This document shows, piece by piece, positions 4,871 through 56,000 of a stretch of DNA of 64,000 bases. Source of the DNA: Xiphias gladius (Eukaryota > Chordata > Actinopteri > Istiophoriformes > Xiphiidae); assembly GCF_016859285.1 (NCBI RefSeq), contig NC_053414.1, positions 8,568,517-8,632,516 on the forward strand. The letters are read 5' to 3'. The notes under the pieces are model-generated. The model made no database searches. It worked only from the letters and a program-made list of their open reading frames with translations, and was not told where the DNA came from. Within the stretch, counting starts at the first letter, position 1. Each line of letters opens with the position of its first letter. The position numbers were made by a program, and so were the translations under genes.

Positions 4871-5064
4871 GTAACAGTATCCTTGGCTCTGGTGGTTTGC
4901 TCTCACCACACTCCGACTCCCAGTTTTACCCGCCCATCGACTGTGATGACTTTTATCACCATGACAACACCAGCTCCAGTGGGGTGCACACCATCTACCC
5001 AGGAGGTCCCGCCGCAACCCTGCATGTCTACTGTGACATGGACACAGACGGAGGCAGATGGACT
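4871..5064 (+). other. Best-preserved exon of the MFAP4-like pseudogene
   Basis: The frame QFYPPIDCDDFYHHDNTSSS continues to MDTDGGRWT and ends at a GT at 5065. Both cysteines expected at the start of a fibrinogen-like domain (IDCDD, VYCDMD) are present. Upstream in the other frame lies a hydrophobic VTVSLALVVCS, consistent with the former signal peptide after a small frameshift. Confidence 0.75.
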
Positions 5065-5629
5065 GTCAGAACACCTCATATTTTATCAGATTTTAAAATG
5101 TAAACAATGACCGATCGCCTTGTATTGTAAAAGCCATTTTTATAATTATTTTTCGATCATGTTGTTTACATCCAAGTTTTCCACTTTGCAGTCTTCTTTG
5201 CATTTCTTGGGATATTAAAATGTTTCTTTTTGCATTACTGCCTCCATCTTTCAGCAAAATAGCCTGAAACTGGCGGTTGGAACATGTTTGATACAAACAA
5301 AACAGATACCCATTCCTAAAAATGTTGTTCCATACCGCTACATGTGTTCAGAAACTCGACAGGGTACCGTCAAGTTACAAAGTGAGGAGTTGAAACTGGA
5401 TGTGGATGTTGTGAGACTTGACTTATTTGACACTTGGCTCCTTAAAGGTTTGATTTGAGACGCCAAAAACATTCAAGTCTCCAACCCACTGAGAAATATC
5501 ACCTGACTCTTCAGTTCCCCTCAGCTCTGGGAAGTATTTTAGTCCCTTTTAGCTCATTGTTTTGGTTTTCTGACTTTCAAAATCTCACCAACCTCATCTC
5601 CAGCAGCAGCAAGCACCTGTTTCAGCCAA

Positions 5630-14400: not shown

Positions 14401-14775
14401 TGAGCACCGAAGTGAAAGGGCTGCAACTACTTCGTTGTCAGATTAATCCTTGGATCTATAAAGTATCAGAAATGGGGGCTAAAAAAAAACGCCTATCTCT
14501 ATTTTCTAAACCCCAAAATAATGCCTGCTAACTGCTTGTTTGTCTGCCCCAAACCACAAGATATTCTCTTTACGTCAGAGAAAGGCAGGAAATCCTCCCA
14601 TTTGAGAAGCTGGGACTAAGGAATGTTTGGCATTTTTTGCGCGATGATCAATCGATTATCAGAATAGCTCTCGATTCATTTGCCACTGAGTGACCAATCG
14701 TTAACCGACCGATCGCTTCAGCTGCACGTTGATCACAGTCAGACCAACGTAGAGGATACATGTTATATACAGCAC

Positions 14776-14809
<34 letters not shown>

Positions 14810-15622
14810 TGTGTTGTGTCAAACAAAAAGTCCTGTCCGGGAGAGTTTAATAGTTGGCGAGAGCAAAGAGAGCAAAATTTCCCCGGGAACCCTGCCGCGA
14901 TCGCGGTCAGAGTCGGACTTACATGCCACTGAGATTATTCAACAGTTCAGCACAGAGTGGGGTGAGGCTGTCGGGCTGTGTCTTCAGACGATGGAGGAGT
15001 TGACGCTCAGGAGTCGTTCAACTCCTGCTGCTCGTGGTGCGGGAGTTCGGTGGGGCGTGCGCTTTATCAGACCCAGTGTGGCAGAGAGCCGGGGGATATC
15101 CAAGCATGAGCTGAAGCAACTGATCGATTGGTCGTTTGACAGGAAATGAATCATTCGCCAGGGCTGCAACTGGAAATTATTTTCATTATCGATTTAATTA
15201 GCAAGTTCTTTGTGCCACAAAATGCAAGAAAATAGAGGGAGAAAAAAAGGGCCTATCACACTTTCCCCAAGCCCAAAGTGATGTATTAAAAGGGCTTGTT
15301 TTGTCTGATCGACAGTCCAACACGAAGATATTCAGTTTACTATCACATCAGACAAAGAAAAGCAGCAACTGCTCACATTTGAGAGGCTGTAACCAGTAGA
15401 TGTTCTGCATTCTTGCTTGAACAATGATTCAAGTGAGTCATCGATTATCCGTCAGTGATTCATTTTCTGTTTGACCAACTAATCATTTCAGTCCTGTCAC
15501 CAACCGTTTTGATAATCAATCCGTCGTTTAAGTCATTTTTCTGGTATTCACTTTTAGTCCCTACTACATCTTTGTCATTTTTACATGTGTGAGAAATTGA
15601 GGATATATGTGTGTGTGCATGT

Positions 15623-24100: not shown

Positions 24101-27100
24101 AAACCACTGGTAACACTCAAGAACAGAAAGGCCGGATTACAGTTTGCAAAAAAGCATCTAAAAAAACCTGCCCAGGTCTGGAACAAGATTCTTTGGACGG
24201 ATGAAACCAAAATTAACTTGTACCAGAATGATGGGAGCAGAAAACTGTGGAGAAGGAAAGGAAGAGTTCATGATCCAAAGCGTACCACATCATCTGTCAA
24301 ACATGGAGGAGGCAGTGTTATGGCATGGGAATGCATGGCTGCCAGTGGAACTGGGTCACTGGTGTTTATTGATGATGTGACTGCTGATAGAAATAGCAGG
24401 ATGAACTCTGAAGTGTGTAGGGCTACACTATCTGCTCAGATTCACCCAAATGCTGCAAAGCTGACAGGACGGTGCTTCACAGTACAGATGGATAATGACC
24501 CAAAACATACTGCAAGCTTTTCAGTACAATTCAATTCGATTTTATTTATATAACGCCAAATCATAACGGAGGTTATCTCAGGGCACTTTTCATGTAGAGC
24601 AGGTCTAGACCGTACTTTTTATAGTTACATTTACAGAGACCCAACATTCCCACATGAGCAGGCGCTTGGCGACAGCGGCGAGGAAAAACTCCCTTGTAAC
24701 AGGTAGAAACCTTGAACGGAACACGGCTCGTGGTGGGCCGCCCTCTGCCCCGACCAGCTGGGTTGAGGGAGAGGGAGAGGGAGAGGGAGAGAGCGAGAGA
24801 GAGAGAGAGACGGGGGCATAGCACAGTAGACGTATAACATAAAGATGTGTAACAATAATGAGACTAATAATAAAACTAATAATTATAATAATAGGGTGAA
24901 TAATACTACTAATAAAATTAAATAATAATTACAAATATTATAATTAATAATAATAGATTATTAAAGAATATTTGAGGCAGTGGCTGTTCAGCAGGATCAT
25001 GGGAGCAGGAGGTGATTTGCAGAAATACCTGCAGAAGGCGACAGGAAGAGAGAGGAGAGAGATGAGAAAGCACAAAACTACAGTAAAGATAGATAAGAAG
25101 TCAAGTTAGTAACAAGCATTTTCAAGGCAAAGAAACGGTATATTCTTCAGTGGCCAAGTCAGTCACCTGACCTCAGCCCAATAGAGCAGGCATTTACCGA
25201 AGACACAACTGAGAGCAGAAAGACCCACATACAAGAAGTAACTGGAGGTGGCTGCAGTAAAAGCCTGGCAAAGCATCTCAAAGGAGGAAACTCAGCATTT
25301 GGTGATGTCCTTGGGTTCCAGACTTCAGGCAGCCATTGACTGCAATGGATTTTCATCCACGTATTAAAAATAATCCTTATAATTATAATTATGTTGGTTT
25401 GTCTAATTACTTTTGAAAAGTAATTACTATGTTTAAAAATGGCTGTAATTCCTAAACAGTTAATGTGATATTTTTGTTGAACCACTTGAATTAAAGCTGA
25501 AAGTCTACACTTCAATCACATCTTGATGGCTTAGTTTCATATCCATTCTGGTGGTGTACAGAGGCAAAGATACGAAAAATTGTGCCACTGTCCAAATACT
25601 AATGTACTGAACTGTATAAACACAGACAGTGACTATGACGTGAAATCAAAGGAGGTTGTTGTACGGTTGTGTGGCGAACAGAAACTGCAGGAAATGGATG
25701 AGCGGAGGATCCGGCGGCTGGCGGAGGGCTACTGCCAGTTTTCAGACATCGAAAAGAAGGTACTGCCTATCATCTCAAAGTGTCTAGAGGGAATCTCTGC
25801 AGCAGGAGCGAAAATTGATGAGAAAGAGGTAAATGTTAGATCTTCGCAAGACAATATAATGTGTCTATGTATGTTGTGTACACACAGTAAGATCTTTTTT
25901 TTGTTGCATTGTTCCGCCCACATATTTAAAATAAGGGAACAGTGAACTTGCTGTGTCTATTTTCTGACTTTGAAGAGTCATAATGCACAACCAGTACAAC
26001 TCTAGTTTGATTTTTATAGATTTTTCCAAATATTATACCTTTTTTGTGCATGACTATGTCTCCACAAGTGAAAAAAGAATAACATACAGTATTACATACA
26101 GTGACGTATGTTTTAGACAATAAGGGTTCAATTTTTAGCTGTAAAATTAACTCTTTAATGTAAAGACAAATATCAGGCAATATATTGTTACTAACTTCAG
26201 ACATCCAGTATCAGTTGGGCTCTGTTGCGCCAACACTTACTGACGTCCGACCGTCTGTTTCCTTGAAGTGGGTGAGTGTCTGTTTGCTCTTCCCTGCAGG
26301 ACTCGATACTGTTCATAGAGCAGCACAAGTCTGGGTTTGAGCGACCTGGAGATTTGGAGTTTGAGGACTACAGCCAGGGAATTAAACCAGCGACCTCTGA
26401 CTCAAGCCTCAATCCGCCCAAAGTGCGCGCCAAGCTATGGCCTTTCAACAAGAAGCACAAGGTGAACTTGCACTCAGATTTGCCTCTCGAATATCTTCTC
26501 TGTCCTGTTTGGATCCTCTTCTTCAAATGTGGTTTAGCTAATCCGGGCTAACATGTGGTTATAAAGCTAAAATGATCCTGTAATTTCAAAACCATATAAC
26601 TTGGTTCTTTAAATGCAGTTAACAGGTTTGACTTGTTCGTCTTGAAACACTGCATTGTCTTATTTTGAAATAAAGTCTAAATGCGTAGTGGAAACAACAA
26701 TCAGTACTCAAATAATTGGCTGATTGAATGATCAGAGAGTGCCGCAGCCTAATTCATTTAAAGATTTAACCATATTCTGATTATTATTTTGATTATTAAT
26801 CATGTATTATTGGATTATTATATTTATGAAATTAAATCCTTGCTGAAACCTCTTTTATAGCAAATCAAATTGACTCCAAAACAGACATTCAATTTTGAGA
26901 CCAATTTTTTTTTTTTCCAATTGAGTGAGTTCAGTAATTTTAAAAAGCTCCGACAAACCAAATAGATGCTCCCCAAAAAAAAAAGAGTACAAAAATGACG
27001 TTTCAACATCAGGTCAGATAGTCTTTCATTGCATCCTTTTGGTTGATATGTAACTGATATCTCAGCGTTTTGTCTTGTTCGCACTGTAAATAATATGAAG

Positions 27101-36497: not shown

Positions 36498-39400
36498 CTA
36501 GTGAAACTGGTCTTGCTGCTCAGGTTGTTGTGGGGTGATCTCCACGGGTTCCAGTTTATCGGAGAGAACACACAGAATTTTGTCGAACTTCTCGTAGCGC
36601 TCATTTCTGTCGGCCAATGCACCTGACTGACCCCAGAGCAGCCGCAGGGCGAACTCTGTCCGGAAAGCCTCCAGCAGCTCAGGGATTGGCTCCCAGCCTC
36701 CTGGTGAAGCAGTGCGACGGACATTTGATCAGATCAGATGCAACACATGATGGACTTACCTACTTTCTGCCAGAGCAACTGTTTATTTTTACCTTTACAA
36801 TAAGCCTCATGCAGGAACCATTTGATATAGTGATACAAGAGAATTTGTTGCATTCACCAATTTTTTCGTACTTGGAATTTTCTCAAACGAAACTCGTGAG
36901 TGATCCACGACCTGTCGCATACGTCACGTACATAAAGTCTGCCTCGCTCCACAGGAGGGAAAACACTTATTTGACTTAAAATCACGATGCCTTAACCTCA
37001 ATGAATTTAGAGTTTATGTTCCCAAAATCTACTAAAACTAAAATGAATAACTAAAATAAACAATGATTTGGGGAACAGAATATTAATTATCATCAACTTG
37101 CCAATTTGAATTTCCCCTAATGCAACTAAATACATTTCTAAGTTTGTTAGGTTTTTGTGTGCTGATTTCTGACAGCAGGACCTGCAGTGGTAAAGTTTAT
37201 CTTTGTACTCTTTGGTGAAATTTTTGTGATTGAAAGCTGCCTACAAACGGCAGCGTTACAGAGAAATGACATTCACAATGTGTGCTGCTGGCAGAGTTAA
37301 GAGAGTTTGGTTAATCTGTTTTGAAAAACTCGAAAGAAACGAACTTCACAGAAAACATCAAGAGATGTAGGATTTTGTTTTATGCGGCCGATTGCGTCTT
37401 TGAAAAAGAGAGGTATCACTGTACGTGTATGTGTGTACCTGTGAGCAGAGTGTGTGCATGCTTCTGATAATCCTGGGCGTGTAGCGCATTACTGCGAGCT
37501 GATTGAAGAACATCGTAGAGAAGCTGACAGCCTCGCTCGCTGTTCTCGACCGGGTCCTCGCCCTCCATCACCATCAGCAGAGGCACAAGGTGCGGCATGG
37601 CTATGGCACCCTGAACCACAGAATCTACAGAAAAACATATGAACACACAGAAAACGTAAAACCAAAGGCACTACATTAACTGGTTTAAATGCTAGATGTA
37701 GCACGTGTTTTTCCCCAGTAGAACTTAACACAATGAAAGGAGAAGCGCGACGATTTTAGACATCATAGTCTGTTTAGTAGTACTGCCTAAGACTTGTAAA
37801 GATGTGAAAAAAGTTTTATGAAGCCCTTTGTGGCTCTAGAGGGAGCTGTGTGAAGTCTGATAAACTGTCTCGAGTGATGTCATTTGAGTCAGCATTGGTT
37901 GGGGCTGAAGATAAGTTTGAAATGAAATTTAAAAAAAAAAAAAAAGGGAGGGTGTGGAGGTAGAACCAGACATCTGTCACGCGCTCCTCATCGCTGCTTG
38001 TTGCAGAAATTGCCTATAATGCAATTTTACTTTCACAACAGACTACATTAGATGTTACACACATAAAAGTCATATCTTAAACAAAAGTGCCAAAAGTTTG
38101 CTTTTATGGTGGTAAATTGAATATCAGGTAATAAATGTTTGGTCAGAAAAGATAAATAATCTGAAGACATCACTTTGGGTACTGGGGATCTGCGATTCAC
38201 TATCCTCTGAATTATTTATTTTTTACACCCAATAATCAATCAATAATTAAAATGAATTGTTAGCTTTAGGCCTACAAATTTAGGATACATACTTACAAGG
38301 CATTAGTAACGTACATATACACACACGTGTAAAAAGCCAGTTCATATTTTGATGAGGAGAAATAACCCCTGAATATTAAGAATAAAGAAAAAAAATGATA
38401 TAAAATGTTCTGAAAGTAATTTGTTCCGTGGCTTTAGATTTTTTTGGTTTTACACTGAAGACAAAACTAAACGACTGCAGGTCCTATCAGCTGTTCCGTA
38501 TTTAAGCTCTTTCAACACCTCAGCACACTTACGTCCATTTAATTTCTTTCAGAAAAAAGAAAAAAAAAAAAGAAAAAACAGAAAAGCTGTTTAACTGGGA
38601 GGGTCGCACTTCCAATTTGTAATTACGAGTTTGAAAAGTCACACTGGACAAAAGCACCTGCCAAAGGAATGTGATGTCAACTCCACCACTCACCGTCTCC
38701 ATCGTTCAGCGAGTTCATGAAGGGTTTGAGTGTCTTTTCAAATAAAACTGCACTCTCTGTGTGGTTCCTCCTCAGCGCTCGCCACGTCATCTGCAGTCGC
38801 ACTATCTGCACACGTGCACACACCAATATATGTGTAAGGCCATTTCAGCCATTTTTCCACTGTGCATAGCTTTACATAGAGCAAGCATATCTTTGTCATA
38901 ATTACACCACCTGAGGCATCTCCAGAGCCTTCATCACGGCTGAGAAGGAGTAGAGGTTGTGGGCGTGCTCTTTCAGGGCCTGAGCCAATAAGATTAATTT
39001 ATGTAAAACAGTCGCCCTCTGGCTCACGGTCCCCGTGCAGCCCAGGATGTCCACGGCAACTCCCAGTGCCATTAGATGATGCCTAAAAAAAAAAAAAAGT
39101 CTCAGAGTACTCTGAAATTAAAGCATAGAACAATAAATAATGAAGATGTTCTAAAAAAGGAATCATGGTATCTTAAATCCTAAATTTAATCTAAATTTTT
39201 GACTCATCCAGCAGCCGAACACACTTTTGCAACGTTCTTTCTACAACTGAAATGAAACACTGTTCAGAAAGTTCATCCCAACACTGTTGCAGAATTTCCC
39301 ACAAATGTGTTGCACTTGCAGGTTGCTTTTCTTTCACTTTCTGTCCAGTTCATCCCAAACCAGCTCCATGGGGTTTAAGTCTGGAGACTGTGCTGGTCTT

Positions 39401-40486
39401 ACATCATTTGAAGCTACCGTCTGGTTCTGTTTTTTTATAGTTTTTTGGGTCATTTTCTTGCTATAGGATGAACCACTGACCAACCAGTCTGTTTCCCTGT
39501 TTTACTTACCTTGTTCTCACCATTATTATAGCAATATACAGTTCTACTTCTTGCAGTACAGTGTTGTCGTAATAATGTATCAGAGGGTGCAGTAACACAG
39601 TTTGTTCCAACACTGCCTTTGTACAGACAGTGGGTTTGCAAGTAATAATCTAAAGTTGGGGCACCTGTGGGAATTGTTTGCATCAACTTTCAAGGCTTCA
39701 TTTACTTCCATTCCATTTACCTTGGGCAGTTTCCCCACTTACCTTTGTACCACTTAAGGCTTTTTGTTGGACCTGAACTGCTTAAATTTCAACAAAAACT
39801 GGTTAAAATGGGGTTGGTTCTGCAACGTTTGACCTACCTACCTTTTGATCTATTCATCCACCTTTTTTTTAAGTGTATAAAGTGTGTTAGCTTCATGTAC
39901 CTTTCCAACAAATCCTGTCGTAACTGGTGTCCATGTGGCAGAGTCACAAGCTCCAGCCCCGATCCAACTCCCATAATCCTCTTCTGCTCATCCGTCACCC
40001 CAACAATTCGTGCTACCTGCAGTATCACAACAATGATAAATCCATGGCCTTTGGTCTTTGAAGTTTACTGAAAACACCAAATTATAAACCAGGGCCCATA
40101 TTTATCAAACAACTGAAAGTAAAATTTTATTTTACTTAATTTGATCTTAATTAAGAATAAAAATTGTTAATCAAATTTCTTACAACTTAAAAATACTTGT
40201 TAAGCTTTAAGCTCGAGAAGTCTGTTAACAGTAGGTCCTAAATGGCTGGAGCACAACAATAAAAATAAAGTGTACTGTATAATGATTCTGAAAATCTACT
40301 TGGTCAAGTTAAATGTTCACTGACCTGGCAGTCAACACTGAGCATGTGCAGAGCGGTGGTGTTGGAGTCCGAGCTGTTGAAGAGCTCCTTGACCACGAGC
40401 AGGACGCTGGGCTCCAGAGGTCGGTTGTTCTCCGGTAAAAGCAGCGACTCAAACTGATCCAGCTGGAAACATGACACCGACTCCAC
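36498..40486 (-). other. sh2d3a: sh2d3a C-terminal Cas-binding RasGEF-like domain
   Basis: Six exons encode VESVSCFQLDQFESLLLPEN through the stop at 36498-36500. Family landmarks are GSGLELVTLPHGHQLRQDLL, ALGVAVDILGCTGT, YSFSAVMKALEMPQ, LRRNHTESAVLFEKTLKPF and ERYEKFDKIL. In the paralogues this Cdc25-like fold adopts a closed form without exchange activity and binds the focal-adhesion-targeting domain of p130Cas-type proteins. Its preservation argues that this is a working gene. Confidence 0.9.
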
Positions 40487-43400
40487 CTGCGATAGTGTGC
40501 GGACAGTGCATACGTACATCATCACTGTGACAACTGGCGGCAAAAGGAGGTCACTCGATTGGCCATCACAGGACAGAGACAACATGGCCGTAGGTTGTCT
40601 CAAGATTAGGCCAGCATTAACAAAAGCCAAGCTCCATCTCAATCTGTCTTCAGCAGCATGGGAAGTTTTAATTTTATGTTGCTTTGGTTGCAGAGCTACA
40701 GTGTATCTCAGATTGCTAGCTGCACTCATTTCAAAGATTATAATCCTGATCAGCTCCTCTTAATCACCATCTTCAAAACTGAGGGATATTTTAGAATAAT
40801 TGCTACATTTCTGTACATTGTCTTTCACTGTTTAATGATCATACAAGTAGCTTTGCATGTTTTAAAACACATACTACAAATCACTGATATCTGTTTTTCT
40901 GTTTGATGTGAAAATCTATTAGCAGACCCTTGAGTCTGCATTTATTTTTTGTCAGTGCATCATGAATCGTTGTGTGGTAATACAGCTGCTACTAATGATT
41001 ATGTTCATTAAACTTACAATAATTTTTCTTGATTAAGCGACTAATTATTAGCTGTATTTTTCTCTATATGTTGTCAAAAAATAGTGGAAAATTTCCAAAA
41101 CAATTTCACACAGCCGACGTGCCATATTCAAAATGCTTTTTTTTTTTCCTCTGACCAACAGCACAAAACCAAGAAGTATTCAAATTTACTGTCATAGAGG
41201 ACTAGATAAACCAGAAAACTGTTATATTTGGGAAGTTGGAACCACTGACCACGTTTTGGCATTTGTGGTTAAAGAAATCTCTTGATAGTTTGGTTTTATA
41301 TATATTAAAAGGAAATGAGTAGAAACCATTTGAAAATCTAAAACCACCCACGATGGTTTTGAAATTAAGGAACTAATACTTGGAAAACACTGGTTTGGCA
41401 TTTAACCTCCATATATACTTAAAACCTAAGCAAACAATGAAAACTACAGACAGTAAATAAAATTTCATTAATACAAACATGTGGCCGTTCAAAATGGCAA
41501 TCTTCCACTTCCTCAGCCGCCTTCCTCTGCAGCTCTTTGTCAAACAGCAGCTGTGATGATGCCTCGTTCTTCTGGGCCTCCAGGAAGTCAAAGGAAGTTT
41601 CTGTGAGGCGGGCACGGCTCTGCCACTTCTCCTCTGCACGTAATCGGTCCACGTGGCCCTTCCGTCGGGAATGTGGCACCTGGACACAACAGCCAGTGGA
41701 AATAATCTCTCATTTCCCCAAATAGCGAAAGAGGAAAAAAAAAAAAAAAAAAAAAAGGATCAACTGAGCTGCGAGTGAATCGTAGAATTTTTTACCTGGA
41801 TGACAAGCTCAGTGTAGAAAGAGGTGGGGTCTTCGTCTGAGTCCGTGGGTGGAGGAAACATGGCACTGGGGAAAACGGCAGAGACCCTGAGAGGTTTAGG
41901 GGGAGCTCTGGGGTGCAGCTGTCCATCCGAGCCTCGTAAAGTTACGCCGCCACCTGCAGGCACAGCGAGGGGGAGCTATGAGTGTGTGTTGTGTATCATA
42001 GGTTCAAAGAGGAAGCCTGCGTGCCTGTGTATGCATGTTACCTGGATGGGACGGGCGAGTGTGTCGTGGTCGTGGGCTCAGCAGGGGTTCGCTGCCTGTG
42101 CGAAACACTGGGGAGATGGGGGCGGGGCCGGTGTCCTCTGACGGAGTGGTCAGTGGAACACCTGGAGGAAGAAGAGTGACAGCAACCAGGTGAAAAATAA
42201 ACCACACGGCGTTGTCAGGGCTCCCAGCCACTGCTAGCATTAAGAAAAATAAATATCATAATGACAAAGTCATTTATTAATAAAATGCAACATCAAATAT
42301 TAATTATATGTCTAGTATGTCAGCAAATATTGGCATTTATGTAGGTTCGCCTGAGCCGCTTTCTTTACACGTCCAGTGGGCATTTGCATTGTGTCCAGCA
42401 GCCATGACAGAGTCCGAACATGACACAGCCACATCCTGTGGACATTAGGGGTTAACGCTGAGGGACCCGTGTGTAATAGTTTGCATGTATATGATAATGT
42501 ACCTGTTCGTAGGTTACTGTCAGACTGCGCAGACTGAAGCGAAGGCCTCCGTCCCACATTCTCCAAGTTAGCAGGCTGACTTCCGCTCCTGCCACACATA
42601 AAATAAAGTTCATGAGCATGTTTACTTGTATTTGTTTGACTACATGTAGTGCGTTTCAGCACAATACATGTGTACGTTCACTGCACTACATTTCAACAGA
42701 CTTCCTCCCACCTTAGCAGCGGATTGATGCCCTGCAGTGCGTCAGTGTACGTGGAGCTGAAGCTGCGTCTTTTGTCGGGTTCAGTGCGCTTTTCTCCCCC
42801 CGCGCCGCCACCGCTGCCGCCGCCGCTGCTGCCTTTGGGCTCCGCATGCTGCTCGATGATGACACGCAGAGGAAGGGTCCGTGTGATTGGGTGAAAGATC
42901 ACAGCACCTGATGCCTGGGAGATTGGCCGACGGCCGCCCACGTAGAACCGGATCAGAGCGGGAACATTGTCAAAGCGATCCTCCTCAAACTGGAACAGCT
43001 CCCGAGAGTAGCCCTGTCACACGGACGGAGGCACACACTTAATATTTATCAAGCAGAGCCTTTGAAAAGGAATAGTCCAACAAAAATCTACCTTTTCAGT
43101 GATGGATTCTCACCCCCAAGAGGCGAGTAAAGTGGCTACTGTAGCTTTAGCAGAGGTCATCTTGGATTTATAGAAGTTACAATAGTTACCCAGATTCACA
43201 GCAAAATGTTGAAAAAAAGAAAAAGCATCAGAAGTTCATAAATATTTCTCAAACCACTCTTGCAACATAATCCACTTCTGCCCTATTGGTCTGCATGCTC
43301 AGCATGTTCCAATCAATCATCACTTTGTCAAATTAATCACTAAATATTTCTGCCAGAGTTTCAGAGCTGTGAGGGAACAATAGTGCAGCATAGAAATAGT

Positions 43401-46230
43401 GTATGTGTAGTGTGTATGTTTTGACTGCGAGTGTTTGGAACATACTGAATATACGGATCAATGGCGGAGAGGTGGATTATAAATTATACTAAAATACATG
43501 TTACCAAAGGCAGAAAATTCCCACATGTTAAGAAGCTGAAACCACTTAATGTTTGGCATTGCTGCTTATTAAATTATTTTAATGATTAAATCAATTATCC
43601 CCCACTTGCTGCCCAACGACAACACACACACACACACACATAACACAAACGCACCTTTTTGGGACGAAGGACCACTCGTATGATCTTAAAGTGCATGGGC
43701 CCGTTCTTCCAGAAGCAGCTCAAAACATAGTCACCAGGGGCAGAGCTTGAGTCTCGGACCAGGAAGTCTCCGTCCCTCTCAAACAGAGACTCTGCAGCCT
43801 GGAGACAAGTCAGCGGGTGAACTTGGTCAGCTGGGCATGGAGATTCACACGTGTGTCGACGTCATACTGTATATGACTTAGGCCTGGCGTAAGTTGCACA
43901 AGAGGTTCTAGAACTACACTTTATTTGCTTTCTTAGATGTTACATGTCTGTATGGTAAATATACTCATTTGCCAGTTTTTTTTTTTGGTACAACTAGCTA
44001 AAACTAATGCAGTCTAATGCAATAAATCCTCCCATCCTTATGCTAAGCTAACTGGCTGCTGTCTCCAGCTTCATATTTAATCATACAGATGTGAGAGTGG
44101 TATTGAAGTAACTCTTCTTAACAAGGAAGTGCACATCCATACTAAAAGTCAATCTATTCCTCTAATTTGTGTGTATAAAAATGTTTTATTAAGTGTAAAT
44201 ACAGTTAGAATAGTACGGTCCATAGAGCACCTCTCGGGTCAGTGGTCCGTGGTACCATGCATGGCTCCTCGGGTCCTCGGTGCTGAGCTTCAGCTCTTCC
44301 TCCAGCTCCTTCTTTAACGAGTCCATCTCTCTCCGACCACCAAAAACCTGCAACACACACAGCAGCAGCCAACTTAATTAGTTAATCTGCATGTTGTCTG
44401 TGCTCACATTTTGTACGAGCTGGGGTATAAATGAAAATATACAGAAAAAAAGGCAGCCAGAAAGGAGCAAGTGAGAGTCGGAGAGGCCGTTTGTTTAACC
44501 TCTTACCTTCAGCTGGCTGAGGTATGCAGTGACACTCCTCCTCTTGCTGAAAAACAAGAGAAAAGATGTGATTTGGGCTACCAAATTAAACCCGAGGGAG
44601 CCACAGATGATGGTTCCATGTTTTTTCTCTGACCATGAACAGTACAAGGATGGAAGGCCGAAGCCAAGGTCTGGGTCTGTCATTAACACCAGAACAAATT
44701 GAGGGACTTTTAATAGCCTGCCTCTTTTTTCTCCTTCCTTCCTCCCTAAGCTTCCAACTTCCTGCCTCTAAACACAAGACTAACAGATGGACAGCTCTGA
44801 GAACTCACAACAGGGCTGAACTCAATAACTCAATGACTCCCACTGTGCTCCAACAGTGTTGTGAGGGTTGCTTGTTTACCCTGCTTTGACCCTGAACTAC
44901 AACCATAACTATTAACATCCACTGAACAAAAACAAATACACATCTTTTTGTTATATTTACACTGATTCACCTAATTCAGCCCAGTAGAACAGTCGTTCAG
45001 CATATTTTCCTCTCATTAAGGTTAGAATATTCGGGTTTGGTTGAAACTGTTTTAGAGAGAGAGAGTTGATTCAATTTTATGTCCATTTTGGAGGCTGCCG
45101 TTTTTTTGGCACTGTTAATTTGAACTCCCTCTCTCCACTTACAAATCCAACCAGGCTAGAGTGACGTGGCGTTTTAACCCCTTGTTTATTGGGTTTTACA
45201 ACAAAAATCTACATGAATCTTACTATTCTTAAAAAGTTGCTCCACAACAGCTTTTAAAGTCTCATCCTATGTCCTGCTCTACACTAGGGCTGCGACTAAC
45301 TTTTTTTTCCCCCATTATGGACTTGGTTAATTGATTAATCATTTGGTCTAAAAATGTCAATGTGAATCATTTTCTCTGCTTTTTTTTTTTTTAAACTTAC
45401 CTAACTGTATTCTTGTGATTGATTATCTAGAAAAGCACTCTATAAATAAAATATATCATCATTAACTGTATTGCATTACACTGACAGGTGTCTCCATAAG
45501 TGAGTCTAACTTCGTTGATATATATTTAGTTGGCAGTTTATTAGGAACGCCCAGCTAAAACCTAAACAGTCTAATCCAACAGTCCTGCAATAAATCCTCC
45601 CTTCATGAAGGCAATGATGTTCAGTTTGTGTTAAACCTTTTTTAGAGAGGCGTTGATTCAACTGCATGGTCATTTTGGAGGCTGCAGTCTGTGATCCTTG
45701 TATTACTTTGTCCAACCCATTTACATCAATGAGGTTAGGCTAAAGACCTGTCTAACGGAAACACCACTCGGTAAAATGTAATACTAGTTCAACAGCAGCA
45801 CAATGACATCCACTAAAATGATAGTACAGTTGAATCAATGCCTCTGGGAACAAATTCAATAAAAACTGAACATTATTGCCTCAGTGAAGGGAGGATTTAT
45901 TGCAGGACTGCTTTTGGTTTTAGCTTGGGGTTCCTACCAAACTGGCATCTGAGTGTGATCGGGTGATAACAGATTTAAAATAAAATAACTTTGTGATCGC
46001 AGTGAAATTCACAAACTAGAGGCCTCCGGAATGACAATAAAGCTGAATCGAAACCTCTTTAAATCGTTTCAACAAAAACCTCAAAACATTATTACATTCA
46101 TAGGAGGTAGAGTTTATGGCAGATCTGTTGATTCATTGACTACATTGGGTTTAGCGAGGTGTACCTAATAAACTGGCAAGGACTGTAGCTGTAACTAACC
46201 CAGGGGACAGCAGTAACGTAGACTCTGACT

Positions 46231-46287
<57 letters not shown>

Positions 46288-46505: not shown

Positions 46506-46563
<58 letters not shown>

Positions 46564-49500
46564 CGACACCGATAGCTAATGTCACTGTAAAGTAGGTTAA
46601 TGGCTTCTATTCGGTTCCCGCTTGCTCTGAAACTGAACATGCTGAGAAAAAAAAAAAAAAAAACTCCGCAAACTGTGCAACAGGTAGGTTGTTAGCAAGA
46701 AGTAACCAAAGTAGCACTTTCGACTTTTTTTGGGGGGGGTCTAAAAAGGTTCAAACGAGGTTTTTAACAGCCTGATATGTCAGAGGGAAGAATAGATGTT
46801 CAGAAAGACTAAGGAAAAGTTACATCAATATACACACGCACACAAAAACAAAAAAACGGCCAGAAACCTTGACTGACATCGAACATCTCGCGTTAATTAA
46901 CGAGGTTGTCCGCGCTTCAAAAAAAAAAACGTTCTACTGGCAGCGGCCAACGGTCCTACCTGTCAGCCCGCTTCACAGCCCGGTCGTCCCGGACATGTTT
47001 TCCGGTTTGCGGTCCGAACTAAAACACCAGCGAACAACAGCTGGGGCAATCCTGCGATCCTTCGCCGCTCCGGTCCCTCCCAGCCCCTCTCCCCTCGCCT
47101 TCCTCCCGGCACGAGCAGTTTCGGACGAGTTCTCACAAGTTCGCCCGAGCTCCTCCTCCTCCTCCTCCCCCCCTCCGCCCGAGGCCCCGGTGCTGAAACA
47201 CCGCTATCTGCCTGGCATTCCTCGGATACCGACACATCACCTGGATACTGTCAGGATTATATGGTAGGTAGCTGTACAGAGGTATGCGTAGGTTTAAAAA
47301 AAAAAAAAAAAGTACTTAATGGTATTGATTTGGTCTCTTTAGATTATCAAAAGAGTTGGCAATTAGTTTACTGTCAGTTGAGTCATCCATTAAACACCTG
47401 ATCATTTCTGCTCTACAGCTCTGGTTGGTTTCCTTTGGGAAATAATGAAAATGCCATGTAGTTGGGGCCAGTAGGGACCCAAAATAACCCCCCCCCCCGA
47501 AGGTTAACTTTGCCCACGGTTCAGAACAGATGTTGTACAGATGCCAGAACCAGTTCGGTCCATGACAGCCACACAAATTCTCAGGAATGAAGCTTTAAAT
47601 AATCAAACCGTTAGCTAAAGTTTTCTAAACGTCTTCTCCCATGTGCATTAGCTTAAAAAGATGCTCATACCTGGGCTCAGTCCATTAATGTTCAGGTGCT
47701 GTACGGCCAGGTGTGTCTGTCATTTATTTCACCTGGGGTTCAGGTGTGTCTGAGCCAATCAGAGGGGAGAGCTATCCGCTCCACTGAGAGCCACAGTTTT
47801 GGTTGACAACCTCAGGGGCTTTCAGCACTCACCACTTGACAACTAGTGACCAGAGATGTGCCTGAACTTGACAGCCTCCTCTTAGACACGTACACTACTC
47901 GTCCGGTGTTACCTTTAAAGAGGATACCCCTGTAGTCATATTCATGTGCATTTCTCCATAGAAATGACTCAATATTCTCTAAGATTGTTCTTTTTTACAC
48001 CTAGATTAAAGGGTAGGTTCACCTAAATCAAACAATAATATTAACCGTATTTTCTTACTTTCCTCTCACAGTTTCTAGCCACGTGGGTCATTTTGGTTTT
48101 ATGTGCAGTGAAAGAATAACAGAAGAATTTCAACAGCAACATCTGGCACAGGTCTGGGGCCCACGGCGTCAGGGGGCGGGGCTAAACCAGAGCCTCTGTA
48201 TAAAGTGACTAAGATTTCTTGTCGGAAAGTCAGAGTGCTGAATCAAAAGTAGGCAAGTCCATACTGGGGCTACAGTAGAATATTTTAGATATATTTCTCA
48301 GCTGACTTGTTCTGCTCTGAAGATATATAACCTGCTCCACAGGCTTCGTTTTATGGTTATGTATAGTTTTCCATAATGTTTTCTGGAGCTGAAGCAATTC
48401 ACTGTTTAAACAGAGAAATAATCAGCAACTTTTTTTGACAATCGGTAAATTACTCTGCCAGGGAGGGTTATGTTTTCACTCCGCGTCTGTGTGTTGGTTT
48501 ATCGTTCAGCAGGATTACTCAAAAAGTACCGAGCCGATTTGTACCAAACTTGGTGGAAGGGTGGGACATGGGCCAGGGAGGAAGCCATTAGATTTCTGAT
48601 GTGGATCCGGTTAAAGGGATGGATCCAGGAATTTTTTTTACACTGTCCTTAATATAGCGAGAGAGGGCATGTTTCGCCTTGGCTGAGGTATGCGCTGTAC
48701 TGAGAGCCATTCTAGTTTGGCTATGTCATTTTTTCAAGCAAAAAAAGCCAAATATTCCCTTGTTCCAGCATCTAAATTTTAAGGATTTGCTGCTTTTCTT
48801 TATTTTACGTCACAGTAACCTAGTGTGGGACAAAACGAGACAATTGATGACTTCAGCTTGGGCTTTACAAAATTGTGATGGATATTTGTCAGTATTCTGA
48901 CATTTTAAAGTTCACGCAGTTCATTGAAAAAATAATCAGCAGATTCATTAACAATGAAAATAATTGTTAGTCGTAAACTGACATGAAACTAAACTAAAAT
49001 GAAAGCTATCTTCATTTACCTGTGTTAACAAAATACTGTCGTTTAAGTGCAGTTTTCTCCCAACAGCAGCACTTTACCTTTTGGGGGTCTGCTGCCACGT
49101 ATCGGGGGGGGCCTTTTGTTCGTCTGTGCCCAGTGGTCCATCATCACACACATGGTCAGCCAATTTCATAGAGAGTACTTCTTCAGCAGAAAGTATTGTG
49201 CCGATGAAAACTGTACACATTTTGTTCTGTGGATCCGCTTAATGTAACAGGGACAGTAATTCCGGAAAGACTTTTTAAAGACCGATTTCTAAAATGTCAT
49301 TTTTCAGTGCTTTGAGCACCACAAACAAAACTCACTTCACCTCCATTGTGGTGGGCTAGCAGCAGAAAATCTTTAGAGACAGAAATCTCAAAACCAAAAA
49401 CCACGTGCATGGCTACATACGTCTAGTATCTAGTGATAAAATATGTCTTCTTTTTACTACTGGTGAGCAAATAACCACCAGAAAGGCTGTATTATCTCAA

Positions 49501-52500
49501 AGAGTCAGTTTACCCAAATTACAAAAAAATACAATATTTTCTGACTTACAGTATCTAGCCATGCAGGGAGATTTGGCTTTATGCGCTGAGATTTTGAAGT
49601 ATTCACCACTGAAACTTCTGCAGGTACCTCAGAACAATGGAGGTGCCCTGACTTTTCTTTCTGCTCCTCAAAGCACTGAAAAGTCCCAGCTGTGTCTTTT
49701 TCAGTTACTCTTTTTTTTTTTTTTTTAAGGGACTGTCTCTTCATCAGAAAGTAGTTCCTGTAAAAACTGTTCACAGCAAGGTCTGTGGATCATTCAGAGT
49801 AACTGGAAGGTTGTTTCTAGAAAGACAAGTTGCCGAGGTTTTCAAATGTAAATTTTTTTAGTGCCCTCAGCGCCTCAAAGAGAATTCCCTTCACTCCTAT
49901 TGTATTGAGGTGGCAGCAGAAATCTTAGATCTGGATAACGCAGACCAAGACTAAACTAAACCACTAACCAAAACCAAAACTATCTGCATGGCTCAATACC
50001 ACCGGGGATAGAGTGGAAACTTGTCTTTTTGTAATTTAAGTGTATCTGGCCCTTTAATACCGAAAACGAGCCTGCACTGAACCTTCTCTTACAAACACAC
50101 ACTCTGGCCTTTGTCACCAAGAGCTTGACTTCTCGCTGAGGGGAAGAATGACCAAAATATCAAAGTCCCAAGGTGTGTTGTTTATTGTGTGTTAGTCATC
50201 AGCACGCTGCTGGTTTCCTCGCCGATGAAGGTACAAAGTAAGATCGTGATGTTGTTTAATTTTCATAAAAGCTTTTCATGAATTGAGTCTTTTCAGCTTA
50301 ATCATAGACAGCTGATTGTTGGGTACACCTACGTCAGCTTACCAACTCTGACATAGGTTTTATGAGGCACTGGTTAATTATTATCCAAACAGAAATAGAG
50401 CACCTGGAGAGATTGGATTTCTCTCTCTCTCTCACACTCTCACACACACGCAACCACTATTACACTCCTTCAGAGATGCACAAACAACACCAATAGGGGG
50501 TCGTCTCACCTGCGTTTGCCGTCCTGACAGCGGTCTGTCTCGCTGATGTGAGTGTTGTCTTCATTCAGGGGGCGGAGCTGCGAGCAGGAGGCGGACAGGC
50601 GGTGTTTTTTGTCAGCGCGCTGGAGGCGGGGCAGAACACTCTGACGAAACAGATCTTTCTTAGGCTTCACCTGCAAAACATGGTAGAGACCCAGATAGTA
50701 GGACTCCTGGGGCTACTGTTTGCATTGTCCTAAAGTGAGGAGTGCCGGCGAAAAATGTGTTCTGAGGAGATGTCCCCTGCTCGGTGTGACCCTAAATTTG
50801 TGATGCTATCCAGTGCCAACTTTGTGGTCTCACCAGGTCCATTGACGATCCCAGGGAGTACTTTCGGCTCACCCTGCGCTCCAGGACCTGCATAGCTGAG
50901 GGGACAAAAGGGTATTGTAAGGAAATAGCTCAACATTTTGGAAACTATGCATATATGCTTTCTGGCAGAGAGTTAAAGAAGAGAAGAGCCATACCAATCT
51001 CGAGTCTAACCGTTAAATATGAAGCTGAAACAAACAAGATATACTGCGTTAATCTGTAAGCTTTAGCGGTTCAGGTGTATTTTGTCACTTTAGGACAGAA
51101 CCAGGTCAGCTGTATTCCAGATATTTAAGGTAACAAAGCTACGCATTTTGCCCAAAATGTTGAACTATTCCTGTGATAGTGGACACACATATACAGTACT
51201 CATAGTGTAAGACATTATTTAACTTGTGACAACCTCTTTCATTCACGCCTTACTATCTAGATTCTCACGCTTAACTTATACTAAGCAAAAACAAGCCAGT
51301 AAACAAGCCCCAAACACAGTACTTCCAGTCTTGACTGTAAATAACGGTTTGACTTGATAAACTTTTCACGCTAAGCATGAATGATTTCAACAGAGACTAC
51401 TCCGTGCAGGTTTAAATGGAAATGGATGCTTAAAAGATATTCAGAGTTTCTCTTTAGGCTTCTTTCATAAAACTCAGACACAGAAACATATTTACTTGAA
51501 TAACCTGAATAAACTAATATCCAAAAAAGAGCACGTGAACAGAATCTGCTTTCAATAAAAAGAGCAAATGAAGCTGACAGGCCTCCTTGTGTTTGACACT
51601 GTATGTGTGTGGGCATGTGCACATGTAGTTCTTTGACAGTGTGTGCACTAGGACTGGGTGATATGATAAAATCCATATCACAATATTAATCATTTAAATA
51701 TATAAATATAAATATAGCTGGGTATCAAACCTCAATACTTTTTTGGTGCCGACCAAAACGTGTTTGTATCACCCAGATGGAAAACTGTCAAGTACTGAAA
51801 ACTGGCATTGGATGTCTTGTCATATTTGTAAACTTGTTTATTCTTAGATTCTTATTTAAAAAAAATTATATTCTCAAATGAAAAATAAGATTTTGTAGAA
51901 AAATGTGCTTATATCTTTAAAGTAACGTATCAAAATAGAGTAGTATTGTTTTTGGTATTTCTACCAAATTTAATTTTAAACAATACCCAGTCCTTGAGAT
52001 GAACATACTGTGTATCATGATTTTGCAGATATATGTAAAGAATTATACAAAATAATCAAACCACTGACGTTCAATGCAGTGAACTGTTTCACTGTGATGC
52101 CTCAAATCTTTCAAAACTATATTTTTAAAACAGCTTCAATAACATTTTTTTACTTTTAAATTATAACTTGCCCTGAATTATTAATTTGTACTACTGAAGT
52201 TTGTAGAATGATACGATACGAGTGTGTTGAGTAATACCCACCTCAAAATTAGCTGTGTGGTAATTAGAATAAACATTATTTAGCATTATGCGATGTGGGT
52301 ATGTGTATACATAGTGAAGGTCTTAAATCTAAGGACCATCTTCCAACTAGGGCCCCTTAAAACAAAGCAACAAAGCATAGCCCGCCTTCAGGCCCTTTTC
52401 AGCTGATATCGTGCTTAAGTGCTGCTTATTTCAGAGGAATTTGTGTATTACATTAGCACAAACAAACAGTAAGCCTGAAGCTTTCATGGCTCCCTGAGTT

Positions 52501-52960
52501 CTGGGGCCTGGTGGTCTGCTTTGCAATCCAGCCTTGCATGTGATACAAAATGATATGATTCCACTTGATTGTCCCCTAGCCCTAGTGTGCATGTGGGCTT
52601 GCGTGTGGCCGGTGTGTGTCACCAGAGTGCGGGTCCAGTCTCTGTCTGTGTCTTGAAAGCTGACTGAGGATGGTTTCTCGGTGCGTTGCGTCCTCTATCC
52701 CTGCATCCTTCAGCTCTCCATCAGTTACATTCAGCAAACCCTGCAGAGAAGCAAGGTCAGCAAAGACTAAAGAGAAAATGAGGATCGTGAAGACTGAAGC
52801 ACAGAGCAAATGAAAGACGAGACATCAACAAGCACACACAAGCACAAGATGATTTTGCACATTCCCATACCTCAAGACCATAATATTCACTTTCTAGTAT
52901 CTTGGTGTACTGGGGCAGGCCAATCTGTCTCAGCCACCAGGCGATGGAGCGATTATTCAT
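36498..52960 (-). CDS. sh2d3a: SH2 domain-containing protein 3A-like NSP-family adaptor with N-terminal SAM domain, 18 coding exons, 849 aa
   Basis: Exons in transcript order: 52962-52871 (ATG 52960), 52740-52623, 50895-50834, 50670-50510, 44546-44507, 44347-44231, 43798-43655, 43013-42712, 42588-42503, 42161-42042, 41953-41796, 41679-41479, 40486-40325, 40016-39901, 39082-38911, 38805-38694, 37624-37439, 36700-36498. Phases agree and the sum is 850 codons with stop. SAM about residues 5-66; SH2 about 188-290 (WYHGPL, FLVRDSS with the phosphotyrosine Arg at 211); Gly-rich 305-317; FYTELVIQ near 460; C-terminal RasGEF-like fold about 534-849 (LPENNRPLEP, LPHGHQLR, DILGCTG, LRLLWGQSGA). NSP proteins bind phosphotyrosine receptors through SH2 and Cas (BCAR1/NEDD9) through a catalytically dead RasGEF fold. 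ALHMLSVDCQ and location between trip10 and vav1 favour SH2D3A over BCAR3/SH2D3C. The first ATG is provisional; coding exons further upstream are possible. Confidence 0.88.
39180..39900 (-). mobile_element. Tc1-like transposon relic in sh2d3a intron
   Basis: On the minus strand 39405-39330 reads RPAQSPDLNPMELVWDELDR, the Tc1 transposase block with the third catalytic acidic residue, followed by a stop and later pieces such as CGKFCNSVG. The other flank (39480-39700) is noncoding transposon sequence. Inactive, and oriented with the host gene. Confidence 0.78.
40984..41225 (+). repeat. GGGCTGCAACTA-type dispersed repeat in sh2d3a intron
   Basis: GCTGCTACTAATGATTATG, AAAAATAGTGGAAAATTTCC, CTGACCAACAGCACAAAACC and ATTCAAATTTACTGTCATAG match the family body. 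Confidence 0.6.
42850..44347 (-). other. sh2d3a: sh2d3a SH2 domain exons
   Basis: Exon 44347-44231 gives MDSLKKELEEELKLSTEDP followed by the SH2 start HAWYHGPL. Exon 43798-43655 gives FLVRDSS and HFKIIRVVL. The first half of exon 43013-42712 gives YSRELFQFEEDRFDNVPALI and GGRRPISQASGA. The KELEEELKLS lead-in is the NSP-family signature. The FLVR arginine and the following strand residues are intact, so phosphotyrosine binding should be functional. The ATG at 44326 could start a 685-aa isoform lacking the SAM region. Confidence 0.92.
43960..44115 (-). repeat. Dispersed repeat (TTAGCTTAGCATA type), reverse copy
   Basis: ATGCTAAGCTAACTGGCTGC, TCCAGCTTCATATTTAATC and GATGTGAGAGTGGTATTGAA. Same family as 32510, 50910 and 58990. 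Confidence 0.55.
45528..46185. mobile_element. Second foldback-like element in sh2d3a intron
   Basis: GGCAGTTTATTAGGAACGCC, GTCCTGCAATAAATCCTCCC and GTTGATTCAACTGCATGGTC on the left reappear reversed on the right (ATGATAGTACAGTTGAATCA, GGGAGGATTTATTGCAGGAC, TGTACCTAATAAACTGGCAA). Partial relatives of the same arm lie near 44000 and 45060. Noncoding. Confidence 0.65.
46232..46285 (+). repeat. (CA)n microsatellite
   Basis: About 26 CA units; a second tract of similar length lies at 46509-46561. Both are in the intron upstream of the candidate short-isoform path. Confidence 0.95.
46960..47240 (-). promoter_or_regulatory. GC-rich block with candidate alternative first exon of sh2d3a
   Basis: This is a CpG-rich stretch inside the 6-kb intron between sh2d3a exons at 50510 and 44546. 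On the minus strand it reads as a GC-rich leader with a very short upstream ORF (MSGTTGL then stop), ending in a good donor, GCTGACAG|GTAGGA, at 46960. Splicing to the exon at 44546 or 44347 would use the ATG at 44326. The absence of any long coding frame fits a 5' untranslated exon and CpG-island promoter. Transcription is inferred, not shown. Confidence 0.5.
48465..48690 (+). repeat. Dispersed fish repeat (AAGTACCGAGCCGATTTGTA)
   Basis: TTCAGCAGGATTACTCAAAA, CCAAACTTGGTGGAAGGGTG, GGACATGGGCCAGGGAGGAA and GGATCCGGTTAAAGGGATGG match a common percomorph repeat. The 60-codon frame inside it is not a gene. Confidence 0.65.
49265..50050 (+). repeat. Dispersed repeat block (two copies) in sh2d3a intron
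   Basis: First copy: GCTTTGAGCACCACAAACAA, GCTAGCAGCAGAAAATC. Second copy: AGAGTCAGTTTACCCAAATT, GGAGGTGCCCTGACTTTTC, TGGCAGCAGAAATCTTAG and AACCAAAACTATCTGCATGG. Noncoding. Confidence 0.55.
50910..51115 (+). repeat. Dispersed repeat (AGCTCAACATTTTGG type)
   Basis: GGAAATAGCTCAACATTTTG, GGCAGAGAGTTAAAGAAGAG, GTTAAATATGAAGCTGAAAC. It begins only about 15 bases upstream of the sh2d3a exon 3 acceptor tract, so it lies in the branch-point region. Confidence 0.55.
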
Positions 52961-52962
52961 GT
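52623..52962 (-). other. sh2d3a: sh2d3a exons 1-2 of the model: SAM domain
   Basis: Exon 52962-52871 encodes MNNRSIAWWLRQIGLPQYTK and on to GLE; exon 52740-52623 continues GLLNVTDGELKDAGIE and HRETILSQL. This is a full SAM signature (W-L..IGL..Y, LL.VTD.ELK..GI, HR..IL). Exon 2 ends in phase 1 and joins exon 3 (CT ATG CAG...) in phase when the strong acceptor CTCAG at 50896-50900 is used. Human SH2D3A, BCAR3 and SH2D3C as I know them have no SAM domain. SAM domains mediate homo- or hetero-oligomerisation; a role here is inference. Confidence 0.8.
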
Positions 52963-53039: not shown

Positions 53040-56000
53040 GCTGGTACATGTTATTTGTACAGTGTCTGAAAAGTAGAAATGAAAGAGTAGTCTGACATCA
53101 ACTTACTTCTAGAAATCAGCCAACGAGACACACAAGCGGAGAGACATTGTACTGTTTGCACTACAGCAGCAACAGTATGTAACACCTACCTGTTTACAGG
53201 GACCTCCAAGGCACTCTGGGCTTTTACTTCTCTCTTTCTCCTTGTAATATTTCTATCTCATACTGCTTCTTTCTTTTCTCACTTGCCCTCTGTTTGCTTT
53301 CCTCTTTTGCAGCTGCTCTCATCTAAGTTGTAGCCTCCGTCATCAAGTCTATCTCTCACTTATTCTTTGCGGTAATAGTGGAAGCCCGCTCCCCCTCAAA
53401 CCGGCTGGGTCACTTAAAAAGCCAATCAGATTGTGCAGTGGGCACACGGTACCCCGCAGACAACAGCAAATCACAGCGTAGGAATTAGCATGAGCTGTCA
53501 CGGGGCGGAGGGTGCAGGTTGAGGCATGACATGGGAGAGAGAGGGAGTTCAGAAAAACACGAAGGGGGTATAGAAGAAAATGTAAGACTCTTGAGCAGCT
53601 ACCAACATGTCAAGTCAGAGAGAGGCAAGCATGCACAGTGGTGTGTCTTCCAATCTGTCTGTGCAGGTAGTGTGTTAGAAGATACAGTATCTGCAGGGCA
53701 ACTGGTGATATGTATTAGACTGACACCTGGTGTTGAAGTAAAAAGTGACACAGGCCTTTTCTTCCAAAACAGGTCAGTTTACTCCACGTGAGGACTTGCA
53801 CTCATCATGTGCTAAGCTTTATTATGTCGTCTGTAACTCTGGAGAAGTCTATGTTTACAGAAAGTCTGTGATTACGAGTATGGAGCGTTATGGGTAGTAT
53901 AGGATCCAGTGTTTTTGGAGCTCGATGCAGTCTGTGGACTAATAGTTAGGATATGTCTGCCTCCACGGCTTCCATTTTGACTGTTCTATTCTATTTTGAT
54001 ATGCCTCTTGCAAGTCCACCAATTTTATGGACATACAAAGCCCATTCAAGGTATCGTCCTTAATCTGGATAACCTGGTTTCACAATTTCTCTAAAACCAA
54101 ACTTAAGTTTAATGTGTCAGGCTGTCAATAGTCTATTATTTTTTTACTTATCACTCCTTATGATAATGATATCAGTCTCATATTTTGATACTTACAGTAA
54201 GACTTTGTCATAAAATAACACACCTTTCGTCTTAATATAAAAAATTTAAATTATACCTAGTGAACACGCCTTTGTAGTAGCTCACAGTGGCTAAAACTAA
54301 CACTCTAGATAGATACTGTTGTCTAAGAGGCATTACTGAGTCGGTTCTTTGACTTTATGACTCCTCTCTACTTACGCAGTAGTTTCACTATGTTGTAGCC
54401 TTTACCATTATCCCGTAACTACCCCTTGTAACGACAGTGGCCACTGTTCAGCAAATGTTACAGAGGCTCCACTTAAAACCTGTCTGTTGACCAGTTGCAT
54501 TAACGATCTATACGTCCAAACCACACACAAAAAAAGAAACATACCTTCTTACTTCTTAGGTAGGTAAATAACAAACAATGCAATTAAATTCCAAATTCTG
54601 TACGATAACTAAATAGACTAACTAAAGTATAAAAATAAAAAAAGAAATATAAATAATGGAAAAAGAAATCAAGACTAAAGATAGACCCATAGCTATACTG
54701 TGCACTGAATATACACTGTACAAGGGCAGTTACGTCATTAATTTAGATGACGTCATTTAAACATCATTGATGGATCGTCAGTCAGACAAAGGCCCCACCA
54801 ATTACATCATTAAGACGTCATGAAGTTTGCGGATTTGAGATCGTAAATAGAAACTGTGGCTTGCATCAGTCTAACTGACCCAAATGCCACAGAGGAGACG
54901 CGGAGAGCTCTGGTGGCTGGATGGATGCCGGGAGCTCGGCTGTCAGGGGCAGCAGCTGAGGCCATCAGCCCACCGACGCACGGCTGTCGATGGAGGCCCG
55001 TTGCGTCAGGTGACCCTGCTGAGCTTCAAGCTCATGGTGTGGCCTGGGGGCTCAAGTCCTGCACGGTTCAGCCTTTGCGCGTCTATGCGATGAGCTTTCA
55101 AGAGTCCACTGTGGGAGCCAGTGGCCTTTCTCTTTCTTTCTTTCTTTCTCTCTTTCTTTTCTATACTATTGTATGAATCAGTAGTCGAATTCATGTTAAA
55201 CCGTAAGAAGTCATTACATTTTAATTTAATATAAGGCTGGAACATTTTTGTTTAGTCCCAAGCAAAAGGAGTTTGCCCCTTTCTCCATTTTATCTCAACA
55301 TGTCAACTTTGCAAGTGATAATAAGTGTTGTTTTTACATCCTGATCTCTGCTGCCTCCAATAGTTCAAAGAATCAGTTCTTGCATATCTAAAATTATTTG
55401 AGTCAACAACTTGAAGCCGTTGGCAGTAGCCGTAAATATTGTTTGAAATGAGATTGGTGCATAATATCTGAGAGATTGTCAGCCATGTCATTACAAAAGA
55501 GCCTTTCATATCTCAGTATGCTCACCATGAGTTTCACTGTGTTAAAGGTGACACCAGGCCCACAACTTCCACATTTCACTGTGGCCTTCTTCTGTTGTTC
55601 AGGGGACATTCAGCAATTACACAATAGCAGCTGTTGTGATTGAGAACCAGTGCACTACAGTAACATGTATCTGTAATGTATCCACAATTTCTAATTTTGC
55701 CCAATTTTATCATTGACTGATTACATATTCAACAGTACTTAACTTGACCATCCTCAGGATGCTTCCTGAACTCTATTAAAGACCTCAAGACTTTTAAAGC
55801 AATTCTGCGATGTTAGTAAGATTGCTAGGAGCAGTTCTCACTTTATGCATCATGTAAGCAGAACGATTACACACAGTATTTATAGTAGCGGCAGTATTGT
55901 GCATGGAATAAAAATGCAACCAAAAGCAACCGCTTTATAAATTAATTTAACAAACAGAAGCACATCTTAGATATGACTGTTTAGTAAAAAATGTGCACAC

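Follow-up and report, generated by a model that had tools for sequence, protein, structure and literature searches.

The window analysed here, 64,000 nucleotides of contig NC_053414.1 of Xiphias gladius, raises the question whether an adaptor gene of the NSP family can begin with a SAM domain, which would be encoded by two exons far upstream of the exons for its SH2 domain. All coordinates given below are positions in this window. A chain of 18 coding exons (E2 to E19) was assembled from the DNA on the minus strand, running from 52962 to 36498 with GT-AG boundaries at all junctions. It comprises 2550 nucleotides, which is 850 codons including the stop codon, exactly the total given in a preliminary description of the locus, and it encodes a protein of 849 amino acids without a single internal stop. 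The pair of SAM exons (E2 and E3) is joined in frame to 16 further exons that carry the SH2 domain and a RasGEF-like (Cas-binding) domain, and this predicted joined structure is confirmed in its exon anatomy, its frame and its domains. It is likely that the locus is a vertebrate sh2d3a gene whose longest isoform contains, in this order, the SAM domain, a basic linker, SH2 and a RasGEF-like domain of the Cas-binding type, and which would also yield forms without SAM. The exons are as follows.

E2, 52871..52962, minus strand: 2 nucleotides of untranslated region and the ATG, first half of SAM (MNNRSIAWWLRQIGLPQYTKILESEYYGLE), ends in phase 0
E3, 52623..52740, minus strand: second half of SAM, ends in phase 1
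E4, 50834..50895, minus strand: linker exon AMQVLERRVSRKYSLGSSMDL; contains an ATG, possible start of a SAM-less form (779 amino acids)
E5, 50510..50670, minus strand: basic linker exon, ends in phase 2
E6, 44507..44546, minus strand: coding exon of the chain
E7, 44231..44347, minus strand: start of the SH2 domain (MDSLKKELEEELKL...HAWYHG)
E8, 43655..43798, minus strand: SH2 domain
E9, 42712..43013, minus strand: end of the SH2 domain and linker
E10 to E13, 42588-42503, 42161-42042, 41953-41796 and 41679-41479, minus strand: middle region between SH2 and the RasGEF-like domain
E14 to E19, 40486-40325, 40016-39901, 39082-38911, 38805-38694, 37624-37439 and 36700-36498, minus strand: RasGEF-like Cas-binding domain and stop codon

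The SAM domain and its predicted junction to the SH2 exons

A profile check of the conceptual protein, which had been proposed in the preliminary description, was performed with Pfam on the whole protein, and SAM (residues 4-60), SH2 (residues 188-268, 1.7e-15) and RasGEF (residues 624-713, 1.6e-8) were all found above their cut-offs. The SAM_2 match, which extends over profile positions 7-63 of 66 and is thus a match to the full-length profile, upholds the claim that the two minus-strand exons at 52962-52871 and 52740-52623 encode a full SAM domain. The 69-amino-acid stretch alone reached 40.5 bits with SAM_2 (cut-off 20.5) and 38.9 bits with SAM_1 (cut-off 23), and the respective values within the whole protein were 34.3 bits (E-value 3.2e-10) and 32.9 bits. 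W9, L10, Y18, G44 and H50, which are core positions without variation in an alignment of six SAM sequences, are all present. The domain is mildly acidic (isoelectric point 5.6), and the linker that follows it is strongly basic (isoelectric point 10.1).

Reassembly of the exons gave the phase 1 end of the second SAM exon and the acceptor at 50896 as they had been described. This acceptor reads CCCCTCAG, its last G being position 50896, so that E4 starts at 50895 and the protein reads ...DPHS-AMQVLERRVSRKYSLGSSMDL across the junction. The frame indeed stays open up to the SH2 domain, as had been stated, but not over "six more junctions": counted from E4, SH2 begins after three junctions (E7) and is complete after five (E9), and six is correct only if the count includes the E3-E4 junction and runs to the end of SH2. 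The strengths of splice sites were scored with a splice-site matrix, and ranked among all 1185 AG and 1136 GT dinucleotides on the minus strand between 36.4 and 54 kb. The acceptors of E2, E3 and E4 take ranks 5, 6 and 22, and the donors of E2 and E4 ranks 25 and 16. Since E4 has a good acceptor, some exon should lie upstream of it, and the nearest exon identified upstream on the minus strand is E3. When all 16 exons downstream of E3 were tried one by one as its partner, the frame was open to the final stop in five cases (E4, E11, E12, E18 and E19), and only with E4 was SH2 preserved along with the frame. The codon usage of E4 is distinctive (its score is reached by 0.2% of open noncoding windows), while that of E5 is borderline (8%).

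Candidate promoters, isoforms and rival explanations

Two candidate noncoding first exons were found on the minus strand, one upstream of the SAM exons and one between the linker exons and the SH2 exons.

53190..53390, minus strand: candidate noncoding first exon of the SAM transcript, 5' end approximate and extent predicted, donor CAG|GTAGGT at 53190
46960..47250, minus strand: candidate alternative noncoding first exon, extent predicted, in a CpG-rich stretch, donor CAG|GTAGGA

The donor at 53190 scores 10.7 bits and has rank 4 of 1136, and a CCAAT-type match lies nearby at 53422 (in plus-strand letters). This candidate exon contains upstream open reading frames of 32 codons and of 6 codons, the latter found by eye. 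After joining to E2, an in-frame TAA stands three codons 5' of the SAM ATG (by eye), and therefore the protein from a transcript with this first exon would start at the SAM ATG. Joined directly to E4, the same exon would give the 779-amino-acid form, which starts with MQVLERR. The donor at 46960 has rank 14 of 1136. The CpG-rich stretch around it extends from 46.75 to 47.5 kb (GC content 0.54 and observed/expected CpG ratio 1.07 at 46750-47249), and the open frame from the ATG of E7 encodes an SH2-only form of 685 amino acids. Mammalian SH2D3A, which is not known to carry SAM, resembles this SH2-only form, and the CpG-rich stretch has the appearance of an additional promoter from which such a form would arise. 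Because of this second candidate promoter at least two isoforms probably exist, the SAM form being one of them. Long (alpha) and short (beta) isoforms generated by alternative first exons have been described for BCAR3 in a passage of PMC11083344, and long and short N-terminal forms, as candidates, would thus be a feature common to both genes. The longest isoform would be transcribed from a promoter near 53.4 kb, with SAM encoded by the first two coding exons, and the promoter near 47 kb, skipping of the SAM exons, or both would generate SAM-less forms resembling mammalian SH2D3A. Two perfect CA/AC microsatellites (46232-46285 and 46507-46561) lie a short distance 3' of this putative promoter at 47 kb. 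A GC-richer patch between sh2d3a and vav1 (54800-55100) is raised in CpG, the windows that include it having observed/expected ratios of 0.71-0.80. It shows codon-like scores for either strand, and perhaps represents a shared or distal promoter.

Several observations weigh against the SAM-SH2 join or against its importance. The E3 donor is of moderate strength and the weakest of the donors of E2 to E4 (rank 95 of 1136); among the 14 donors of E5 to E18, two are weaker still (E7, rank 145, and E13, rank 353). An alternative acceptor at 50887, 8 bases downstream, slightly outscores that of E4 (10.0 versus 9.4). The preliminary description had chosen the acceptor at 50896 as the one required by the frame, and this held, since with 50887 the frame runs into a stop codon after 90 codons, but 50896 is not the winner on strength alone. 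The codon usage of E2 and E3, taken alone, is undistinctive, with 29% and 14%, respectively, of open noncoding windows scoring equally high. Lastly, the clearest CpG-rich promoter candidate, that at 47 kb, is located 3' of the SAM exons, while the observed/expected CpG ratio is only 0.36-0.37 in windows of 53.0-53.75 kb, and therefore the SAM form may be a minor one.

One way to read these observations is that the SAM exons make up a small gene of their own, or a short transcript (about 82 amino acids), between vav1 and sh2d3a, which ends within the E3-E4 intron, and that sh2d3a starts in E4 (MQVLERR..., 779 amino acids) or in E7. Read-through past the E3 donor yields a SAM-only open reading frame of 82 amino acids, the intron contains AATAAA at 51842 and ATTAAA at 51974, so that such a product is possible, and E4's own ATG would suit a start without SAM. 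However, the intronic AATAAA carries little weight, because AATAAA or ATTAAA occurs 27 times on the minus strand over 36-54 kb; the E3 donor is usable and its phase matches that of E4 (one chance in three by phase alone); and the good acceptor of E4 demands an upstream exon, with the SAM exons lying on the same strand. In the interval from the SAM exons to vav1 (53.05-57.86 kb), none of the 31 minus-strand open reading frames with at least 40 codons passed a Pfam cut-off, and so no further domain-bearing coding exon of such a gene emerged, though shorter exons would have escaped this search; four of them had sub-threshold matches to unrelated families (E-values 0.011-0.064). A separate SAM gene is therefore regarded as improbable. 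Hardly more probable is the view that the join is a rare or non-functional splice form, that the functional proteins start in E4 and E7, and that the SAM exons survive as a remnant undergoing decay. The CpG-rich putative promoter at 47 kb, the upstream open reading frames before the SAM start and the weak codon usage signal of E2 and E3 would fit such a remnant. Decay is at odds, however, with a SAM frame that is intact across both exons, with the retention of the core residues, with a score nearly twice the SAM_2 cut-off, and with all six splice sites of E2 to E4 being usable by score.

Identity of the gene and its neighbors

The order of the neighboring genes is trip10 (plus strand), the sh2d3a-type gene (minus strand) and vav1 (plus strand). 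The product of trip10 contains FCH and HR1_TOCA domains and has CIP4 as its best match in PDB (2efk, 2.3e-39), and that of vav1 has Vav (3ky9, 3.6e-35). Order and orientation agree with the arrangement of human TRIP10, SH2D3A and VAV1. The C-terminal domain of the adaptor best matches the solved domains of BCAR3 (3t6a, 1.2e-93) and SH2D3C (3t6g, 1.3e-86), but seven residues of these two solved relatives are missing from the window protein, and presumably the same seven-residue gap exists in human SH2D3A, which favors an SH2D3A identity. A point to the contrary is that over the shared domains the identity is 56% with BCAR3, 52% with SH2D3C and 47% with SH2D3A in a comparison with the human sequences. 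Nevertheless, the gene is assigned to sh2d3a because its position settles the identity. TRIP10, SH2D3A and VAV1 are all three listed as members of the neighborhood of C3 that is conserved across tetrapods and fish (PMC7768046, legend of figure 4). By synteny and the shared gap, the locus is sh2d3a (NSP1), and the SH2D3A-type identity assigned in the preliminary description is thus borne out. The resemblance of the SSMDL segment to the N terminus of BCAR3, which had also been proposed, found modest support: E4/E5 aligned to the BCAR3 N terminus with a local score of 42, which was equaled in 4 of 500 shuffles, and to SH2D3C with a score of 34 (41 of 500 shuffles).

Further elements were observed in the window. 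A Tc1/mariner-like transposase remnant is present among the trip10 exons (23718-24553, plus strand, HTH_Tnp_Tc3_2 8.2e-9), and another one in the intron between E15 and E16 of sh2d3a (about 39200-39640, minus strand), with a DDE_3 match of 7.4e-4 that lies below the cut-off. Such Tc1-like elements, together with the overall character of the sequence, fit a teleost. An exon-like open reading frame at 4846-5100 (plus strand) matches the start of the Fibrinogen_C domain (Pfam 1.3e-5), and a long open frame at 14733-15149 (plus strand) has coding-like codon usage (35 bits) without a Pfam match.

Possible partners of the SAM domain and comparison with known adaptors

With its SH2 domain, middle region and RasGEF-like Cas-binding C terminus the window protein resembles the members of the NSP family, SH2D3A (NSP1), BCAR3 (NSP2) and SH2D3C (SHEP1/NSP3), and it differs from them by its N-terminal SAM domain. 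In cell migration, NSP adaptors couple Cas proteins to integrins and to receptor tyrosine kinases. A passage of PMC2666772 attributes to all NSP proteins an SH2 domain, a proline/serine-rich middle and a C terminus resembling guanine nucleotide exchange factors, and names no SAM domain there. In the portions of the open-licence literature that were covered, no SAM domain was found described for any NSP protein, although predicted fish sh2d3a models in databases may already show one. The collections viral_contigs and genome_contigs, which are not designed for animal genomes, yielded no relative of the SH2-GEF protein, of the SAM domain or of a four-row NSP alignment, a negative without any bearing on fish. 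The SAM-bearing form is thus probably a new variant of the family. Joint mentions of BCAR3 and a SAM domain, as far as the passages concerned extend, turned out to be unrelated in content in PMC6844070 and in a tensin review, where the SAM domain is that of DLC1 (PMC12383349), and a survey of sea-star SH2 proteins was dismissed as a lead, as its protein with SAM and SH2 is called BLNK-like in the part seen (PMC11593052).

An adaptor with an N-terminal SAM domain is also known in SLP-76 (LCP2). The SH2 domain of SLP-76 is C-terminal, unlike that of the window protein, and SLP-76 is not known to have a Cas-binding domain; homology over the whole length is not expected. Its SAM domain self-associates to form signaling clusters, according to a passage of PMC3795252. 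Among solved structures, the top-scoring SAM sequences were those of SHIP2, fused there to EphA2, and of Caskin and ANKS1B, and SAMD5 gave a weaker match (0.0021). Because several of these top-scoring domains were solved with or fused to SAM domains of Eph receptors, heterotypic SAM binding is as plausible a conjecture as oligomerization.

Eph SAM domains bind to the acidic mid-loop of the SAM domains of SHIP2, Odin and SAMD5; in SHIP2, Asp1222 and Phe1226 are required and their substitution abolishes EphA2 binding, while SAMD5 makes use of Tyr27 and charge contacts instead (PMC5993539, in part). In the alignment with SHIP2, Tyr26 of the window SAM stands at Trp1221, Tyr27 at Asp1222 and Gly31 at Phe1226, and of these three positions only the aromatic residue at the first is retained. 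Binding of the SHIP2/Odin type was therefore rejected as unlikely, because the two critical residues are replaced. In the alignment with SAMD5, Tyr26 stands at Tyr27, Asp37 at Asp38 and the acidic Glu39 at Asp40, while Asp28 and Asp29 have no equivalents and are replaced by Tyr27 and Gly28. Judged from these residues, Eph binding of the SAMD5 type is half-supported. For the DLC1 SAM domain a switch within the molecule is reported (PMC12383349, in part), and by analogy this is a third possibility here.

In the long sh2d3a isoform, the C-terminal domain would hold a Cas family protein and the SH2 domain would bind to an activated receptor via one of its phosphotyrosines, while SAM could supply a second contact that does not depend on phosphorylation. 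Its partner might be another SAM protein, e.g., an Eph receptor bound via the SAMD5-like tyrosine, or SAM might bind to itself and thereby cluster Cas complexes. For SHEP1 (NSP3), binding to phosphorylated EphB2 is reported in a passage of PMC10532290. It is conceivable, albeit rather doubtful, that SAM-SH2-Cas-binding is an undescribed functional NSP architecture that is old in vertebrates and was lost together with the upstream exons in mammals, and that it acts as a two-handed bridge from receptor to Cas, with SAM contacting Eph SAM domains or itself and SH2 reading the receptor phosphotyrosine.

According to a passage of PMC5773182, a zebrafish SH2D3A-type gene, for which expression in the presumptive epidermis is listed, is downregulated 12.1-fold in yap1;wwtr1 double mutants, and therefore an in vivo system is at hand. 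With a SAM domain on NSP1, the NSP family would gain a second docking module, and the clustering of NSP-Cas complexes or the engagement of Eph SAM domains would become testable. The SAM form could also help to account for the function of SH2D3A.

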